DNA of 64,000 bases, from the NCBI RefSeq assembly GCF_022414535.1, contig NZ_JADWYM010000014.1, positions 1-64,000 of the forward strand, written 5' to 3'. Below, one piece after another: positions 50,652-59,277 of the stretch. The notes under the pieces are model-generated. The model made no database searches, had not been told where the DNA came from, and saw nothing but the letters and a program-made list of their open reading frames with translations. The DNA is from Streptomyces sp. MUM 2J (GTDB lineage Bacteria; Actinomycetota; Actinomycetes; Streptomycetales; Streptomycetaceae). The translations under genes and the position numbers were made by a program. Each line of letters opens with the position of its first letter. Position 1 is the first letter of the stretch.

Positions 50652-52130
50652 GTGAGCATTTCCGAGCCGTTGGACGATCCGTGGGCCGACAGTGGTCCCA
50701 GCGATCGTCTGCCCGCCTCCCGTCGGCGCGGTGACGGTGGCCGGGGCCGCGACGAGCAGCACGACCGGGGACGGGACAACGGTGCCTGGGAGGGCGCCGG
50801 GTCCACCTTCGAGCGCCTTCCGCCGCAGGACCTCGAAGCCGAGCAGTCGGTCCTCGGCGGCATGCTGCTGTCCAAGGACGCCATCGCCGACGTCGTCGAG
50901 ATCCTCAAGGGACACGACTTCTACAAGCCCGCCCACGAGACGATCTTCCAGGCGATCCTCGACGTCTATGCCAAGGGCGAGCCGGCCGACCCCATCACGA
51001 TCGCCGCCGAGCTGACCAAGCGTGGCGAGATCAACAAGGTCGGCGGCGCCTCCTACCTGCACACCCTCGTCCAGACGGTGCCGACGGCGGCCAACGCCGA
51101 GTACTACGCGGAGATCGTGCACGAGCGCGCGGTCCTGCGCCGCCTCGTCGAGGCCGGCACCCGCATCACGCAGATGGGCTACGCAGCCGACGACGACGTC
51201 GACGAGATCGTCAACCGGGCCCAAGCCGAGATCTACGCCGTCACCGAGCAGCGCACCAGCGAGGACTACCTGCCGCTCGGCGACATCATGGAGGGCGCCC
51301 TCGACGAGATCGAGGCGATCGGCTCGCGCAGCGGCGAGATGACCGGCGTGCCCACCGGATTCACCGACTTCGACTCCCTCACCAACGGACTGCACCCGGG
51401 CCAGATGATCGTCATCGCCGCGCGTCCCGCGATGGGCAAGTCGACGCTCGCACTGGACTTCGCGCGAGCCGCCTCGATCAAGAACAACCTGCCGAGTGTG
51501 ATCTTCTCACTCGAAATGGGACGCAACGAGATCGCGATGCGCCTGCTCTCCGCCGAGGCCCGCGTCGCCCTGCACCACATGCGCTCGGGCACGATGACGG
51601 ACGAGGACTGGACACGTCTGGCCCGCCGGATGCCGGACGTCTCGGCGGCCCCGCTGTACATCGACGACTCCCCGAACCTGTCGATGATGGAGATCCGTGC
51701 CAAGTGCCGCCGCCTCAAGCAGCGCAGCGACCTCCGACTCGTCGTCATCGACTACCTCCAGCTGATGCAGTCCGGTGGTTCCAAGCGCGCCGAGAGCCGG
51801 CAGCAGGAGGTCTCGGACATGTCCCGTAACCTCAAGCTGCTCGCCAAGGAGCTGGAGCTCCCGGTCATCGCGCTCTCACAGCTCAACCGCGGCCCCGAAC
51901 AGCGCACCGACAAGAAGCCGATGGTCTCCGACCTGCGCGAGTCCGGTTCCATCGAGCAGGACGCCGACATGGTCATCCTGCTGCACCGCGAGGACGCCTA
52001 CGAGAAGGAGTCGCCGCGTGCCGGTGAGGCCGACCTGATCGTCGCCAAGCACCGAAACGGCCCGACGGCCACGATCACCGTGGCCTTCCAGGGCCACTAC
52101 TCCCGGTTCGTGGACATGGCCCAGACCTGA
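50652..52130 (+). CDS. dnaB: Replicative DNA helicase DnaB
   Basis: A 492-residue hexameric helicase from GTG 50652 (VSISEPLDDPWADSG), with GGAGGAGG upstream. After a ~50-residue charged extension comes the N-terminal domain (LPPQDLEAEQSVLGGMLLSK). The RecA-like motor has Walker A ARPAMGKST (257-265), Walker B LRLVVIDYLQLM, and the arginine-finger region near SLEMGRNEIAMRL. No intein is present, unlike some actinobacterial DnaB. It unwinds DNA at forks; DciA, encoded beside recF, is its likely loader. Confidence 0.97.
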   Translation: MSISEPLDDPWADSGPSDRLPASRRRGDGGRGRDEQHDRGRDNGAWEGAGSTFERLPPQDLEAEQSVLGGMLLSKDAIADVVEILKGHDFYKPAHETIFQAILDVYAKGEPADPITIAAELTKRGEINKVGGASYLHTLVQTVPTAANAEYYAEIVHERAVLRRLVEAGTRITQMGYAADDDVDEIVNRAQAEIYAVTEQRTSEDYLPLGDIMEGALDEIEAIGSRSGEMTGVPTGFTDFDSLTNGLHPGQMIVIAARPAMGKSTLALDFARAASIKNNLPSVIFSLEMGRNEIAMRLLSAEARVALHHMRSGTMTDEDWTRLARRMPDVSAAPLYIDDSPNLSMMEIRAKCRRLKQRSDLRLVVIDYLQLMQSGGSKRAESRQQEVSDMSRNLKLLAKELELPVIALSQLNRGPEQRTDKKPMVSDLRESGSIEQDADMVILLHREDAYEKESPRAGEADLIVAKHRNGPTATITVAFQGHYSRFVDMAQT

Positions 52131-52487: not shown

Positions 52488-52925
52488 ATGTGGGACAGGG
52501 CTTCGGCGCCGGGCGCGCGTGCGGACCGCCCAGCGGACCTTGTGGTGGACGTGCTGCTGGACTTCGCGCCCGACCCTGAGCTGGATCGGGAGGCGGCCGA
52601 CCGGCTGGGGCGTCGACTACGCGCAGAAATAATCGAATTGGATGTCGAGTCGGTGCGGTGGGCGGAGGGTGGCCCCCCGCCCGACGGGGCGAAGGGCACG
52701 GACGCGCTCACCCTCGGAGCCGTCGTCGTGGCGCTGAGCGCGTCCGGAGGGGTGTTCACGTCGCTGATCGGCACCGTGCGCGACTGGCTGGGCAGATCCT
52801 CCGCCCGGCACCGCATCTCGGTGACCATCAACGGCGACACGCTCGAACTCGACCGGGCCTCGGATGCCGAGCGCCAGGCCCTGATCGACGCGTACGTCCG
52901 CCGCCACACCGGCGACCAGCGGTGA
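52488..52925 (+). CDS. Effector-associated constant component 1 (EACC1) protein
   Basis: A 145-residue protein. After a polar N-terminus, DPELDREAADRLGRRLRAEI and ELDVESVRWAEGG form a small alpha/beta half. A hydrophobic segment ALTLGAVVVALSASGGVFTS passes into IGTVRDWLGRSSARHRISVT and the beta-hairpin ISVTINGDTLELDRASDAER. This layout matches the EACC1 family, the constant small partner in predicted NTP-dependent biological-conflict systems of multicellular bacteria, where it is encoded beside a variable effector protein. Here the neighbour, 6 bp away, is a caspase-WD40 protein, which fits exactly. Molecular role unproven; membrane association is likely. Confidence 0.8.
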   Translation: MWDRASAPGARADRPADLVVDVLLDFAPDPELDREAADRLGRRLRAEIIELDVESVRWAEGGPPPDGAKGTDALTLGAVVVALSASGGVFTSLIGTVRDWLGRSSARHRISVTINGDTLELDRASDAERQALIDAYVRRHTGDQR

Positions 52926-52931
52926 GCGGCC

Positions 52932-55244
52932 GTGGGACGCAGACTGGCGCTGCTGATCGCCACCTACGAGTACCAGGACAGCGCACTGCGGCAGTTGACG
53001 GCGCCGGCGCACGACACGGAGGCGCTGGGCGCGGTGCTGAGGGATCCGGCCATCGCGGGGTTCGAGGTCACTACTCTGGTCAACCAGCCGCTTCATCTCG
53101 TCGGTCAGGCCATCGGCGACTTCTACCGCGACCGGCGCCGCGACGACCTCACCCTTCTGTACTTTACGGGCCACGGACTCAAGGACGACAGCGGCCGGCT
53201 CTATCTCGCGATGACCAATACCCGGCACGACAGTCTGCTGTTCACCGCACTGTCCGCTGAGCAGATCGACCAGGCTCTGGAGGGCTGCGTGTCCCGCCAG
53301 AAGGTACTGATTCTCGACTGCTGCTACAGCGGGGCCTACTCGGCGGGCGGACGGATCTCCAAGGGCGACACCGCGGTGCACGCCTTGGAGCGTTTCCAAG
53401 GGCGTGGTCGTACGGTGCTGACCGCGTCGGACTCGACGCAGTACTCGTTCGAGGGCGGCCGGGCGCATGGCCAAGCTCCGCAGTCTGTGTTCACCCGCTA
53501 TCTGGTGGAGGGCCTGCGCGACGGCAGTGCGGACCTCGACGGTGACGGCGACATCACCCTCGACGAGCTGTACGGCTACGTCCATGACCGGGTGGTTGAG
53601 GAGATACCCCAGCAGCGGCCCAAGAAGCAGGACAACGTCGAGGGCCGGATCGTCATCGCGCGGAACATCAACTGGCAACTCCCCCTCCATCTCCATAACG
53701 CCATCGGCAGCCCCATGGTCAGCGATCGTCTCGGTGCTCTCGATGGGCTCGCCCATCTGCACCGGATCGGGAACGAGGTGGTGCGGGCGGCCGTGATGGA
53801 GGTGATGCGGGGCCTTCAGGAGGACGACAGCAAGCAGGTCTCCGCCGCGGCGGCCGCACGGCTTCAGGCCCTTCTGCCTCAACAGCCCCCACCCGAACCG
53901 GCACCGACACCAGCCGCAGCACCCGCTCCGGCCCCCTTAGCGCGGGCGACACCGGCACCGACTCCGCGACCCGCCCCCGCACCCACGGCCGAGACCGCGC
54001 CACCCCGTTCCCGAGCCGCCACGCGCACCCCCGCGGCCGTGGGGCCTCCCGCCCCGCCGGCGCCGGTGGTACGGGCCACCACCCGTGCATCCCGCCCTGT
54101 CCGCCGGCCCCGCCGGGCCAAGACGCTCACCGTCGCTGTCGCCCTGGCCCTCGCCCTGACCGTCACCCTGGTGCTGGTCCTGGCGAAGGGCAACGGCGAG
54201 GGCTCGCAATCCAGCAGCGGGACGGTCGACACGCAAGTGATCGCCACCGCCACCGGGGCGGGCACTGAAGTGGAGTTCAGCCCGGACGGCAAGCTCATCG
54301 CCGTTGGCAGCGACGAAGGAATACGGCTGCTGCGGGCATCGGACGCCCAGACCGTCACCACGCTCGCGGGCCGAAACTACCCCGTGTTCAGCCCCGACGG
54401 ATCGATCCTCGCCATGGGGGACATCCTGCACAGCGGCGACGGGGCCAACCTGACCGTGCGACTGCTGAATCTGGCCACCGGCAAGACCCTCGTCATCCAC
54501 ACCAAGCACTCGGGCAGCGTGCTGAAGGCGTTCAGCCCCAAGGGAGACCTCCTCGCCACCGCGATGGGGGTCGCTGGTCCCGACTACGACAACCCGGTCC
54601 GGCTCTGGAACACCACCACCGGCAAGCTCGTCGCCAGCCTCTCCGGCCACCGGAACGGGGTCCAGACCATGGCGTTCACATCTGACGGCAAGACCCTCGC
54701 CACCGGAGCAGCCGGGTCTCCCTGCACGGTGCGGCTGTGGGACATGACGACCAGGAAGACCAGGGCTGTCCTGCCCGCCGGCTGCGTCCTCGCTTTCAGC
54801 CCCCACGGCAAGACGCTGGCCACCAGCAGCGAGTTCGCCGCAGACCAGAAGGTGCACCTGTGGGACGTCGACACGGCGAAGGACCTCGCAGCCCTGTCCA
54901 AGGGCCGGCCCGTGGGATTCAGCGCGGACCGTGCGTTTCTGGCGATCCAGTCCGGCGAGGGCTCCGCGCAGCTCTGGAAGCTGTACGTCGACAAGGTTCC
55001 GCGGACCTTCACCGGTGTCAGTGCCCTGAGGTTCAGCACCGTGGGTGAGATCCTCGCCATCGTCTATGCCGACGGCACGGCTGAACTGAGAAATCTGGCA
55101 ACGAGCGGATCGACCGTGCCCCTCACGGCCGACGCCGGCAGCAATGGAAAGATCCAGAGCGTGGCCTTCAGCCCGGACGGCAGGACGGCGGCCACCGCCA
55201 ACGCGGACGGCACGGTACGAGTGTGGCGCCTGGGCGCCTTCTGA
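52932..55244 (+). CDS. Caspase-like protease with EF-hand loop, transmembrane helix and WD40 propeller
   Basis: A 770-residue protein from GTG 52932. Residues 1-~245 are a C14 caspase/metacaspase domain: catalytic His81 in LLYFTGHGLKDD and the Cys of VLILDCCYSGAYS (Cys131, preceded by Cys130). Inside it, DLDGDGDITLDE (201-212) matches a canonical EF-hand calcium loop. A helical segment (~262-317) and a Pro/Ala/Arg-rich linker follow, then one membrane helix (~399-419) and seven WD40-type repeats (SPDGKLIAVGS ... SPDGRTAATANADGTVRVWR). By the positive-inside rule the protease is cytoplasmic and the propeller outside. It probably acts with EACC1 as a sensor-triggered suicide or immunity effector. 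Confidence 0.9.
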   Translation: MGRRLALLIATYEYQDSALRQLTAPAHDTEALGAVLRDPAIAGFEVTTLVNQPLHLVGQAIGDFYRDRRRDDLTLLYFTGHGLKDDSGRLYLAMTNTRHDSLLFTALSAEQIDQALEGCVSRQKVLILDCCYSGAYSAGGRISKGDTAVHALERFQGRGRTVLTASDSTQYSFEGGRAHGQAPQSVFTRYLVEGLRDGSADLDGDGDITLDELYGYVHDRVVEEIPQQRPKKQDNVEGRIVIARNINWQLPLHLHNAIGSPMVSDRLGALDGLAHLHRIGNEVVRAAVMEVMRGLQEDDSKQVSAAAAARLQALLPQQPPPEPAPTPAAAPAPAPLARATPAPTPRPAPAPTAETAPPRSRAATRTPAAVGPPAPPAPVVRATTRASRPVRRPRRAKTLTVAVALALALTVTLVLVLAKGNGEGSQSSSGTVDTQVIATATGAGTEVEFSPDGKLIAVGSDEGIRLLRASDAQTVTTLAGRNYPVFSPDGSILAMGDILHSGDGANLTVRLLNLATGKTLVIHTKHSGSVLKAFSPKGDLLATAMGVAGPDYDNPVRLWNTTTGKLVASLSGHRNGVQTMAFTSDGKTLATGAAGSPCTVRLWDMTTRKTRAVLPAGCVLAFSPHGKTLATSSEFAADQKVHLWDVDTAKDLAALSKGRPVGFSADRAFLAIQSGEGSAQLWKLYVDKVPRTFTGVSALRFSTVGEILAIVYADGTAELRNLATSGSTVPLTADAGSNGKIQSVAFSPDGRTAATANADGTVRVWRLGAF

Positions 55245-55554: not shown

Positions 55555-56121
55555 TCAGCGCCTCGTCTCGTACCTGGTCAGGACCACGCCGCCGGGAAAC
55601 GTCCGCGTCTCCACCAGGTTCAGGTTCACCCAGCTGTCCAGCGTGGTGAAGAACGGCGTGCCGCCGCCCACCAGGACCGGATGGGCGACGATCGCGTACT
55701 CGTCGATCAGCCCGGCGCGCATGGCCGCTCCGGCGAGCGTTGCGCCGCCGATGTTCATCGGGGCGCCGTCCTCGGCCTTGAGCCGGGTGATCTCGGCGAT
55801 CGCGTCTCCGGTGACCAGGCGGGCGTTCCAGTCGACCTTGTCGATCGTCGAGGAGAACACCACCTTCGGCGTGTCCCGCCAGTTCCGCGTGAACTCGATC
55901 TCCGCCGGGGTGGCGTTGGGCTGTTGGTCGCCGGTCGGCCAGTAGGAACTCATCGTCTCCCACAGTTTGCGCCCGTACAGCGACAGGCCACTCTCCTGCT
56001 CGTGGTCGAGCCACCACTGGAACAGCTCGTCGCTCGGCGGTCCGCTCCAGCCGATGTCGTCGCCGGCCGCGGCGATGTAGCCGTCCAGGGTCAGGTTCAT
56101 GCCGTAGATCAGTTTTCGCAT
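55555..56121 (-). CDS. Dihydrofolate reductase family protein (RibD C-terminal type)
   Basis: A 188-residue protein from ATG 56121 with GGAAGG 8 nt upstream. MRKLIYGMNLTLDGYIAAAG and DDIGW open a DHFR fold. Further marks are LYGRKLWETMSSYWP, KVVFSSTIDKVDWNARLVTG, NIGGATLAGAAMRAGLIDEY and HPVLVGGGTPFF. The family is widespread in Streptomyces and uses NADPH, but substrates are mostly unknown, and this is not the housekeeping DHFR. It is convergent with the caspase gene and part of the accessory segment. Confidence 0.88.
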   Translation of the reverse strand: MRKLIYGMNLTLDGYIAAAGDDIGWSGPPSDELFQWWLDHEQESGLSLYGRKLWETMSSYWPTGDQQPNATPAEIEFTRNWRDTPKVVFSSTIDKVDWNARLVTGDAIAEITRLKAEDGAPMNIGGATLAGAAMRAGLIDEYAIVAHPVLVGGGTPFFTTLDSWVNLNLVETRTFPGGVVLTRYETRR

Positions 56122-56473
56122 GGCCCAGCCTTCCGTCCGTGGGTGTCCGGCGTATGGACCAGCGCGGCGCGGGAAACTCATCGGTGCGCGGCCGGGGCTC
56201 GCCGGTAGTCCTCGTGCTCGGGGCCCCGCAGCCATCCGCCCGAATTCCGCCGCAAGGTCCTTGATCTCGTGCACACCTCATGCAGTCGGCATACCGCAGG
56301 GATCACGCGTCAGCCCCTGCCGACAACACGCTTTGAAGGTCAGTAGCGTAGGAGAAGAAGCACGGACTCACCTCAGAACTGCTTGTGCGGAGTGGGAAAG
56401 GCCACAATTCGGAGCAACTGACCCGGGAGGAGTTCGATGAGGTCCGGCGAGTGCGGGCCGCCCGCCGTCTCCG
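56122..56473. other. Intergenic region with a possible coding remnant
   Basis: 352 bp. On the plus strand a frame at about 56352-56490 reads TSELLVRSGKGHNSEQLTRE and EEFDEVRRVRAARRLRQ, charged and gene-like with moderate third-position G/C. It begins right after a TAG with no start codon. It may be a gene remnant beside the pseudogene. Nothing else seen. Confidence 0.3.
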
Positions 56474-57749
56474 TCAGTCGTCGTACACGACGTTCAGACC
56501 GCAGTCGACCAGATAGTCGGAGTACCCGAACCGCTCACCGAGCGCCGTGAAGGCCTCGCAGCGGCGTTCGGGCACCTGCACCCCGTAGGCCTCTTCAGGG
56601 CGCGCAGGAACAGACGGTGTCCGAGGTCTGCACAGGCCTCGGACACCACCCGCTCCAGCGCGGCACGTCGGTGGCGTCGGCGATGCCCCACGCCTCCTGC
56701 TGCGCGGTGGTGCCGCGTTCGGCTGCCGCAGCGGCTGCCTTGGCGTGACCGTTGGCCGAAGCCACCAGTTCATCGGCCTTGCTCCGCGCGTCGGCGAGGT
56801 CGGTGTCTGCCCGCTCGTACAGCTCGGGTTCGGGCTTGAACTGGGAGTCGGGGTCCGCGACGAGCTCTTCCGCGACGACCTTCTGCCAGGTCAGGATCTG
56901 GTCGGCACGCCAGGCCCGCTGGATGGCCCGGACCATGTCGTCCGTGGCCGCGCGGGTCTCGGCTGCGGCGTCCGTCTCCGCCTGGATGATCGTGTTGCGT
57001 TGCTTGGCCTGGCCGGCGTGCTCCTGCTCCCACTCGGTGCTCGCGGCCATGACGGGACCGTTGAGGACCCGGTTGCCGTCCAGCGGGTTCTGCCAGCTGC
57101 ACTCGGACCAGGCCTGCTTCAGGTTCTCCACCAGTACGCGGTACTCCGCGGAGTCCTTGGCGGGTGCCTTGGTCGGAAAGCCGCCGTAGCGCAGACAGGA
57201 GGCCACGTCGTGGGCGGTGGTGCCGCCGGAGTACCGCGTGTCGTAGACATCGCTGTCCGAGAACGAGGAGTCTGCGATGAAGTCGTTGGTGGCGTTCTTG
57301 CCCTTGTTCTCCTCGGTGATCTCCCGGGCCCGGGCGACCGCCCCGGGGCCGGCATTGGTGTGCCCGTCCCAACCGAGCTGCTGGGAGATCTCTTCTTGGG
57401 TGAACAGGGTGAACAGGGTGAACAGGGTGAACTGAAGAACCTCGGCGTCGAACTCCGGGATGTGCCAGTTCATCTCCTCGCTGTAGAACGCGTTGGAGGC
57501 ATACGGCTTGTTTGCTTCTTCCAGCGCGGTCGACCTGGCACCGAGTCCGTTCCGGTAGTCGAACGAGGCCTCCCGGTCCTCGCTGTTGGCCTGCCCGATC
57601 GGGTACAGGCCCAGGTAAGTACCGGGACCGACGATGCTGTTGAGCTCCTCGGACGTGCCCGAGAGGCCCTCGACGGCCTTGGCCTTCATCTGATGACCAG
57701 ACGCTGAGCCGGCCGGGTCGCGTGCCGCGCTCGCGCGGCGGTCCACCAT
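56474..57749 (-). pseudogene. Decayed ALF-repeat-like large protein gene
   Basis: From ATG 57749 a long frame reads MVDRRASAARDPAGSASG, then a helical Ala/Glu-rich protein with ARSKADELVASANGHAKAAA and AERGTTAQQEAWGIADATDV, typical of the large ALF-repeat secreted or polymorphic-toxin-like proteins of Streptomyces. Just after this (near 56658) the frame runs into junk and a stop at 56595. Coding-like sequence continues in a second frame (AALERVVSEACADLGHRLFL, about 56610-56690) and then in a third (EEAYGVQVPERRCEAFTALG to a stop at 56474). At least two frameshifts or deletions, and the lack of a signal peptide, mark it as a remnant. Confidence 0.7.
57398..57433. repeat. 9-bp tandem repeat (GGGTGAACA, about 4 copies) in the pseudogene
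   Basis: On the coding strand this gives FTLFTLFTLFT, an in-frame slippage expansion inside the decayed gene. Confidence 0.85.
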
Positions 57750-57882
57750 CACAACACCCCCAGGGACAACGCCGGCTGCGGCAGCTGGAGTCCGTGGTCG
57801 GCCGGCCCCCCTGGTGCACAGCGCGCCGGGGCTGAGGGCATATGCGCTCGACGAGTGGGCCCGGGCGGGGTGGACTGTACGC

Positions 57883-59277
57883 ATGACGACTTCTCAGCAG
57901 GGGCTGCTTCCGACCACGCGGCGTGCGCTGCTGCACCGGATCGCGGTGGCCCAGAGCGATGGGCGTACACCGTCACTCGCTGCCGCCGTCGTGCGGGGCG
58001 GACAGCGGGTGTGGGACGGCGCGCGGACATCGCTCGACGGGCAGGCTCCGGACGCGAACACGCAGTACCGCATCGGCTCGATCACCAAGACCTTCACCGC
58101 GGTACTCGCCCTGCGGCTGCGCGACGAGGGGCTGCTCGACCTCAACGACCCGCTGGAGAAGCATCTGCCGGGCACGGGCACGGGGGCGGGGGAGGCGACG
58201 ATCGCCGATCTGCTCGCCCACACCGGCGGCCTGGCAGCTGAGGCGTCGACGGGGCCCTGGTGGGAGCGCAGCCCTGGCTCGTTGCGCCCGGAGCTGTCGG
58301 ACGTGCTGGGCGACGAGCCCCACCGGCACCCGGTCGGGCGGCGGTTCCACTACTCGAACCCCGGTTACACCCTGCTCGGGGCCCTCGTCGAACAGCTTCG
58401 GGGTGCCCCGTGGGAGGACGTCCTTCAGCGAGAGGTGCTCCACCCGCTGGGCCTTGAGCGGACGGGCGTACGGCCTCGCGCACCGCACGTGGGCGGCTGG
58501 GCGGTGCACCCGTGGGCCGATGTGCTGTTGCCGGAGCCCGCGCAGGACTTCGGGCGGATGGAGCCGGCCGGACAACTCTGGTCGACCACCGGCGACCTGG
58601 CACGCTTCGCGACCTTCCTGGCCGAGGGGGACGACCGGGTACTGAGCGCGCGGAGCGTGCGGGAGATGCGGACGCCGGCTGCGCCTGCCGAGGCCGCAGA
58701 TCTGGCGGACGGTGTCACCTACGGCCTCGGGATGCAGCTCCAGTACAAGGGCGGGCGTCTGCTCGCAGGGCACAGCGGATCCGTGCCGGGCTTCCTGGCG
58801 AACCTCAGCATCAGCGTGGCGGACGACGTCGCGGCGGTGGTGCTGGCCAACTGCACCTCCGGGCCCCAGGTGTCGGCCGTGGCCGGCGATCTCGTGCGCA
58901 TCGTCGCCGAGGCCGAGCCCCGGATTCCCGAGCCGTGGCGTCCGTTGATGCACGTCGATCCGGCCGTGCTGGAGCTGGCAGGGCCGTGGTACTGGGGGAC
59001 GAACGGGGTCGTCCTGCGTCCGAGGGCTGATGGCCTGCTGGCACTGGACCCCCTGTCCGGCAGCGGACGCCGTGCGCGGCTGCGGCCGAACGGCGACGGA
59101 ACCTGGACCGGACTGGACGGCTACTTCGCCGGTGAGCTGCTGAGGGTGGTACGGCGGGCGGACGGGACGGTGGACCACCTGGACCTGGGCACGTTCGTCT
59201 TCACGCGCCGGCCCTACGAGGAGGGGGCAGCAGTGCCGGGCGGGGTGGATCCGGAGGGGTGGCGCGGCATCGGATAG
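57883..59277 (+). CDS. Serine hydrolase of the beta-lactamase / penicillin-binding class C type
   Basis: A 464-residue protein. I chose the ATG at 57883 (MTTSQQGLLPTTRRAL). The active-site S-x-x-K is in YRIGSITKTFTAVLALRL, the Y-x-N is in FHYSNPGYTLLGALVEQL, and the third motif is HSGSVPGFLANLSI (H-x-G). A ~110-residue C-terminal beta domain follows (WYWGTNGVVLRPRADGLLAL). No signal peptide is evident, so it is probably cytoplasmic, acting as an esterase or D-amino-peptidase rather than a resistance enzyme. Function inferred from family. Confidence 0.9.
   Translation: MTTSQQGLLPTTRRALLHRIAVAQSDGRTPSLAAAVVRGGQRVWDGARTSLDGQAPDANTQYRIGSITKTFTAVLALRLRDEGLLDLNDPLEKHLPGTGTGAGEATIADLLAHTGGLAAEASTGPWWERSPGSLRPELSDVLGDEPHRHPVGRRFHYSNPGYTLLGALVEQLRGAPWEDVLQREVLHPLGLERTGVRPRAPHVGGWAVHPWADVLLPEPAQDFGRMEPAGQLWSTTGDLARFATFLAEGDDRVLSARSVREMRTPAAPAEAADLADGVTYGLGMQLQYKGGRLLAGHSGSVPGFLANLSISVADDVAAVVLANCTSGPQVSAVAGDLVRIVAEAEPRIPEPWRPLMHVDPAVLELAGPWYWGTNGVVLRPRADGLLALDPLSGSGRRARLRPNGDGTWTGLDGYFAGELLRVVRRADGTVDHLDLGTFVFTRRPYEEGAAVPGGVDPEGWRGIG

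Follow-up and report, generated by a model that had tools for sequence, protein, structure and literature searches.

Among the predicted conflict systems built around the small EACC1 domain, the closest described relative of the locus reported here is System 4 of Kaur et al. (2020; PMC7159879). As defined in the main text of that paper, System 4 comprises a 5′ EACC1 gene and a 3′ gene encoding an N-terminal caspase with a variable C-terminus, superstructure-forming repeats included; an NTPase gene is not a component, and some of the C-termini are STAND NTPases. Its role in conflict or immunity is a prediction of the same paper, in which multicellular bacteria account for 650 of the 671 organisms with EACC1 systems (Table 1). 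In the main text of an earlier survey, no additional domain of prokaryotic caspase homologues is more numerous than WD40, with 73 sequences (10.9%; Asplund-Samuelsson et al., 2012; PMC3501461). Here we analyze an EACC1-caspase gene pair in a 64,000-nucleotide stretch of Streptomyces sp. MUM 2J (contig NZ_JADWYM010000014.1, positions 1 to 64,000), referred to below as the window. Judged by gene order and domain matches, the pair is a member of System 4 and not a new kind of system, and we read it, with a probability of about 0.6, as a System 4 member in which a propeller outside the cell would be the receptor controlling a protease inside. The two genes and their parts are the following.

52488..52925, plus strand: EACC1 gene, 145 amino acids (PF19953 above cut-off; AlphaFold2 model)
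52932..55244, plus strand: gene for a caspase-membrane helix-WD40 propeller protein, 770 amino acids, GTG start (PF00656, PF00400, NF047832)
52938..53621, plus strand: caspase domain, residues 3-230 (Pfam match)
53172-53174, plus strand: catalytic His81, within YFTGHG
53322-53324, plus strand: catalytic Cys131, within DCCYSG
53532..53567, plus strand: EF-hand-like loop DLDGDGDITLDE, residues 201-212, inside the caspase domain (conservation; helix-loop-helix in the model)
53667..53879, plus strand: helical region, residues 246-316, part of the constant module and conserved with the caspase across swapped C-termini
53880..54125, plus strand: Pro/Ala-rich linker, residues 317-398, Arg-rich beside the membrane helix (sequence; predicted local distance difference test score, pLDDT, mostly <50)
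54126..54182, plus strand: predicted membrane helix, residues 399-417 (hydropathy 2.77; N-in/C-out by charge)
54231..55232, plus strand: WD40-type propeller of eight repeats, residues 434-767 (PF00400; repeat motifs; model)

The first-pass annotation of this stretch, made from the letters and their open reading frames, had the lengths and coordinates of both proteins right, as well as the gap of 6 base pairs (bp) between the genes, which share a strand and have intact frames. The profile search that it had proposed bore out the EACC1 identity of the smaller protein (PF19953, 31.5 bits against a cut-off of 23.6 in the Pfam scan), and an NCBIfam scan of this protein returned no match. In the larger protein, the caspase with its GHG and DCCYSG motifs, the membrane helix and the WD40 region lie where they had been placed, with Pfam matches to Peptidase_C14 (PF00656, 58.4 bits, cut-off 21.4) and WD40 (PF00400, 106.6 bits, cut-off 27) and an NCBIfam match to NF047832, “caspase, EACC1-associated type” (187.8 bits, cut-off 140). 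The propeller had been described as seven-bladed; we find eight WD-type repeats, with motifs starting at residues 449, 486, 534, 582, 622, 663, 701, and 746. AlphaFold2 builds this part from 31 mostly well predicted strands, and in Foldseek the model comes closest to WD40 propellers. Within the region of residues 246-316, the model places helices at 252-259, 263-279, 282-295, and 301-314. The annotation had also held that EACC1 usually accompanies a signaling NTPase, which would make the pair an unusual minimal system; the main text of Kaur et al. (2020) instead defines the system as two genes, and an NTPase gene is not part of the published System 4. No consensus promoters or terminators were found between positions 52080 and 55600, where the chance expectations are 0.1 and 1.0, so that this result is uninformative.

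A first line of evidence is the predicted orientation of the larger protein. The net charge is +7 in the 15 residues before helix 399-417 and 0 in those after it, which predicts a caspase inside the membrane and a propeller outside, the arrangement that the first-pass annotation had suggested; the same N-in/C-out charge bias is present in 18 of 18 caspase-propeller proteins. A cut made in the cytoplasm could not supply the cytoplasm with an effector in the form of an outside propeller, and the predicted topology therefore favors a receptor over a released effector as the role of the C-terminus in the window protein.

The second line of evidence is the exchange of C-termini on a constant module made up of EACC1, the caspase and the helical region, which is joined through the Pro/Ala linker to the changing part. 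The first 316 residues of seven close relatives are 65-83% identical to those of the window protein, and their C-termini comprise WD40 behind one helix (L039, L040, and L043), PQQ (L038 and L042), TPR (L041) and, in L044, a region of nine helices that gives no more than a weak propeller match. Even in the three WD40 relatives the aligned part of the propeller shares 33-48% identity with that of the window, while the caspases share 79-85%. Pfam matches on the C-termini of other loci include YbjN, PP2C, TPR, PQQ, NACHT and lactonase-type propellers, and three of the 20 loci scanned (L091, L129, and L160), besides L112, gave no match. On a “quick” tree of 82 rows with support from the Shimodaira-Hasegawa-like approximate likelihood ratio test only, from which L098, L136, and L157 were dropped because they reach contig ends, we count at least 26 changes of C-terminal class, where classes derive from BLAST linkage, hydropathy and some Pfam scans (the C-termini of 20 loci and four further proteins), also count the number of helices, and include an “other” class that lumps unrelated domains. 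The propeller-holding cluster of 42 rows was checked in part, and it includes L112, without a Pfam match, and L148 (the same protein as in L044), with a weak propeller match. The pattern is that of a putative recognition module on a constant executor. Such exchange agrees with Kaur et al. (2020), to which the topology argument for a receptor is an addition for the window protein.

One candidate among these fusions was rejected. In Streptomyces griseorubiginosus (L094:6001-10449) an EACC1-linked caspase appears fused to a 2-oxoglutarate dehydrogenase, which we had considered as a host-enzyme bait. The fusion holds the only PF16870 match found in that genome, its junction falls in the Pro/Ala-rich linker, and a contig of the window genome has its end at the matching place, 82 bases from the start of the same dehydrogenase gene (G000:C11:83). 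The fusion is thus probably an assembly chimera and is not used as evidence; the locus stayed among the rows of the tree.

Within the caspase domain we observed a feature that could bear on how the protease is controlled. The canonical EF-hand loop spans 12 residues between two helices, with acidic residues at positions 1, 3, 5, and 12, glycine at position 6 and isoleucine or valine at position 8. The segment DLDGDGDITLDE satisfies this rule and is flanked in the AlphaFold2 model by helices 186-197 and 210-224. Among 109 aligned caspases (a set with three same-genome pairs, L038/L149, L041/L103, and L044/L148), D201 is kept in 107, D203 in 101 (Asn in five), D205 in 102, G206 in 106 and an acidic residue (E/D) at 212 in all 109. 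His81 and Cys131 are each kept in 108 of the same 109, and by this alignment the EF-hand-like loop is conserved nearly as well as the catalytic residues within this branch of caspases. The terms “EF-hand” and “calcium” are absent from the main texts of Kaur et al. (2020) and Asplund-Samuelsson et al. (2012), for seven archaeal orthocaspases such a motif is noted in a 2019 study of pseudo-orthocaspases (PMC6426788), and no other literature on this point for the caspase family was apparent by title. Calcium control of EACC1-associated caspases is at this stage an unproven idea suggested by sequence.

Taken together, these features are compatible with the following scheme. The propeller would be a receptor that recognizes a ligand at the cell surface, and its engagement would cluster or release the caspase, of which EACC1 would be a small regulatory or adaptor subunit. 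The active protease would then cleave itself or host proteins, such that the cell stops in an abortive-infection-like death or a signal is started. We infer defense or regulated death as the role of the pair, and the sensor-transmitter-killer reading of the first-pass annotation is plausible in its outline. The EF-hand-like loop might in addition make the caspase calcium-dependent, in which case envelope damage admitting Ca2+ would favor activation. A more specific version, which we regard as tentative and put at roughly one chance in four, is a calcium-gated receptor protease: the exchanged outside propeller would recognize an attacker, Ca2+ entering through the damaged envelope would bind the caspase EF-hand, and EACC1 would be a soluble ferredoxin-like adaptor. 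In that version EACC1 may be comparable in role to the adaptor domains of animal death complexes, with no implication of descent.

Several observations weigh against the receptor-protease reading or its calcium-gated version. The AlphaFold2 model is poor over the caspase part. Two of the close relatives, L042 with its PQQ propeller and L041 with its TPR C-terminus, are without a predicted membrane helix, and an outside receptor is therefore no rule for the whole family. The Pfam EF-hand models remain below threshold on the caspase (EF-hand_5, 14.9 bits against 25.9; EF-hand_1, 13 against 25.4; EF-hand_6, 12.1 against 25), and the loop is absent from the divergent EACC1-linked caspases L065 and L066. 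In a small control of 18 caspases found by PF00656 and sorted by upstream EACC1, an EF-like loop occurs in three of three with a strong EACC1 upstream (E ≤ 1e-17; the window included, and looser in L174); all five with a weaker EACC1 (E 3e-5 to 8e-8) lack it, and of the remaining ten a single one (L176) has it. Given this distribution, the loop appears to mark one branch rather than all EACC1-linked caspases, and it is not exclusive to that branch. PADLOC found nothing defense-like among the seven neighboring proteins (DnaB itself gave a weak match, E 2.3e-4). Finally, we found no functional experiments on any EACC1 system in the literature.

The linkage of the two genes is kept well beyond the window. 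With the window EACC1 as the query, matches were found in 27 of 150 same-genus genomes, the window's included; 29 matches lie outside the window, seven of them at least 57% identical to the query. For 28 of these the surroundings were read: a caspase follows immediately 3′ in 26, lies upstream in one (L058) and was not found in L064. When named genomes were searched with the constant caspase module, the best 80 of 198 relatives were kept; EACC1 was recognized beside 72 of these 80 caspase loci, mostly with a gap of 2-7 bp, by a profile that started from the window EACC1 and was trained on those same candidates. EACC1 was not recognized at the other eight (L111, L123, L131, L143, L153, L156, L159, and L164), of which L143 starts just 344 bases ahead of its match. 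Judged by title, 68 of the 80 come from actinobacteria, for an actinobacterial query, and among the five tree rows nearest to the window caspase the four with names are all Streptomyces. Across 198 genomes of the phylum, PF19953 occurs in seven, with five above cut-off, the window's among them.

As to mobile elements, plasmids yielded two Nonomuraea gerenzanensis records with a match, phage records none to the pair, and viral contigs one weak match (64 residues, 36%). In one Nonomuraea plasmid (L202:4962-7935; NZ_CP084059.1), an EACC1 relative, a caspase and a WD40 protein are encoded as three genes beside a tyrosine recombinase; the caspase and WD40 genes overlap in different frames, in effect a split or broken version of the window architecture. 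PADLOC gave no match for EACC1 and a weak generic caspase match for its partner (E 1.1e-5).

A divergent second pair is present in the same genome as the window (G000:C7:115132-116162, minus strand; L066:5379-6929). Its caspase has the motif DCCFSG, no EF loop and, further on, a helix which we take to be twin-arginine-like; a Rieske [2Fe-2S] domain comes after it (PF00355, 47.5 bits, cut-off 20.3), so that the L066 caspase is joined to what may be an outside redox sensor. Section 33 of PMC7159879 names actinobacteria and proteobacteria; caspases with an adjoining recognized EACC1 also occur beyond these groups, in Chloroflexota (L157, L158, L161, L165, L166, and, with a gap of 251 bp, L162) and in a Methanotrichaceae bin (L167). 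These are metagenome bins in which contamination is possible. L156, L159, and L164 resemble these loci without a recognized EACC1.

In the window, the pair lies in a slot behind dnaB, bounded and accompanied as follows.

50676..52130, plus strand: dnaB (conserved part), left border of the variable slot (PF03796, PF00772)
55555..56274, minus strand: RibD_C-domain gene (PF01872)
56595..57884, minus strand: fragment of a much larger protein, probable remnant, 429 amino acids (matches in long frames)
57814..59277, plus strand: beta-lactamase-family gene, right border of the slot (PF00144)

We found dnaB in 61 of 61 genomes searched and compared the region behind it in 20 of 36 other same-genus genomes, over about 7.4 kb each (2.1 kb in L070). 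The EACC1-caspase pair is absent from the compared stretch in all 20. The beta-lactamase-family gene follows in 16, almost directly in five (L070, L071, L073, L083, and L084), and lies 5.7 kb from dnaB in the window. Two GNAT acetyltransferase genes (PF00583 and others) occur in 14 and 11 of the 20, and other relatives have different open frames in the slot. Moreover, dnaB is near none of the 80 named caspase loci, within up to 6 kb on either side, and near none of the 28 EACC1 loci of the genus. Since the pair is missing from all 20 relatives, the slot contents differ and dnaB does not accompany the other loci, we consider the slot variable and the pair a local arrival, in line with the variable locus beside a core gene that the first-pass annotation had suggested. 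That annotation had staked its reading on an EACC1 match, on conserved linkage and on a pair that is not core at this place; EACC1 matches, the linkage is kept in other genomes, and the pair is not core at this site.

Its “DHFR-like” neighbor is a RibD_C protein instead. A RibD_C gene 84-85% identical to that of the window stands behind dnaB in two of the 20 relatives (L079 and L080) without the pair, and it is therefore probably independent of it. The supposed pseudogene next to it is better described as a 429-residue fragment of a larger protein and a probable remnant: it has no Pfam match, it matches sequences in 17 of 60 other same-genus genomes, and the eight best matches beyond its own genome lie inside open frames of 1,299-2,548 amino acids. 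It also holds a short repeated stretch, FTLFTLFTLFT.

The alternative that survives best is a signaling or developmental protease of multicellular actinobacteria, acting in hyphal death, sporulation or envelope stress and not in immunity. It would suit the concentration of EACC1 systems in multicellular bacteria, signals from the envelope or from the organism itself could be what an outside propeller senses, and no defense gene turned up among the seven neighbors. Against this stand the accessory distribution within the genus, the differing genomic sites, the turnover of C-termini and the Nonomuraea copy beside a recombinase, a pattern like that of conflict genes and unlike that of a conserved developmental pathway. 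By its distribution the window pair is an accessory, rare, movable copy, and we give the developmental alternative about a quarter of the probability.

Somewhat less probable, at perhaps one chance in five, is the published model (Kaur et al., 2020, section 33): EACC1 would act as a sensor that crosses the membrane once and switches on the caspase, which by cutting itself would release a C-terminal effector. Enzyme C-termini such as PP2C suit the word “effector” in the members that carry them, whereas release of the window C-terminal domain, which is predicted outside, would not bring it to the cytoplasm. The model rests on EACC1 being a membrane protein, described in that paper as one conserved membrane helix with alpha+beta flanks. 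From 66 EACC1 sequences, AlphaFold2 instead predicts a single alpha+beta domain (pLDDT 80.6; predicted template modeling score 0.71) with the order beta-alpha-beta-beta-alpha-beta-beta-alpha (beta 19-27, alpha 34-49, beta 55-58, beta 77-84, alpha 87-103, beta 109-114, beta 117-121, and alpha 126-141). The published membrane-helix segment becomes strand 77-84 and helix 87-103 in this model, which puts the helix in doubt. Among 98 EACC1 relatives, gaps occur in 16 at Gly87 and in 14 at Gly88, and proline in 14 at position 85 and in 24 at position 91, features that are unusual inside one membrane helix. The segment is also less hydrophobic than the membrane helices of 18 partner caspases (medians of 1.95 and 2.51 against 2.47 and 5.17). 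On the other hand, it passes membrane thresholds in most relatives (Kyte-Doolittle >1.6 in 89 of 98, Wimley-White octanol >0 in 94 of 98), and the model is less confident over residues 61-80 (blocks of 62 and 68), both of which speak against a soluble domain. Foldseek gave no match to the EACC1 model at E ≤ 0.001, with rows that were mostly mixed ferredoxin-like proteins; VIA-align gave a best Z of 8.1 with many tied rows near 7, a level rated common in its notes; and the best E of the sequence profile against the PDB was 0.021. The rows include the TRADD N-terminal domain (1f3v_A), at Foldseek rank 33 with a TM-score of 0.32, from which we infer no kinship. We lean, by about two to one, towards a soluble domain rather than a membrane helix. 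Least of all, we would expect a decaying or non-functional pair parked in a variable slot: a neighboring gene is a probable remnant, yet neither frame of the pair is broken and the larger protein retains its catalytic dyad, its EF loop and all eight repeats, which makes this very improbable.

An outside receptor controlling an inside protease remains our preferred reading. The window pair is one further case of a predicted family on which we found no experiments in the literature, and as an intact, simple two-gene handle with a clear predicted receptor topology it bears on three questions: the membrane or soluble nature of EACC1, a possible calcium requirement of the caspase, and the role of the swappable C-terminus as sensor or effector. 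Its interest lies in the EF-hand-like loop and in the fold of EACC1 rather than in the pair as such.

As to known systems, among PDB sequences the constant caspase module matches MALT1 paracaspase best (E 0.0012, residues 4-132); the resemblance is distant and spans part of the caspase domain, and no functional likeness is claimed. The combination of caspase and WD40 is shared with the prokaryotic metacaspase-WD40 proteins of the 2012 survey, in which EACC1 does not appear to figure. The caspase fits NF047832, with no difference among the features tested. With System 4 the pair shares the gene order, the EACC1 domain, the N-terminal caspase, the variable C-terminus, a membrane helix in the caspase protein and the lack of an NTPase gene; it differs in detail only, by an eight-repeat WD40 propeller predicted outside the membrane and, unlike the published EACC1, by an EACC1 protein whose model is not a membrane helix.

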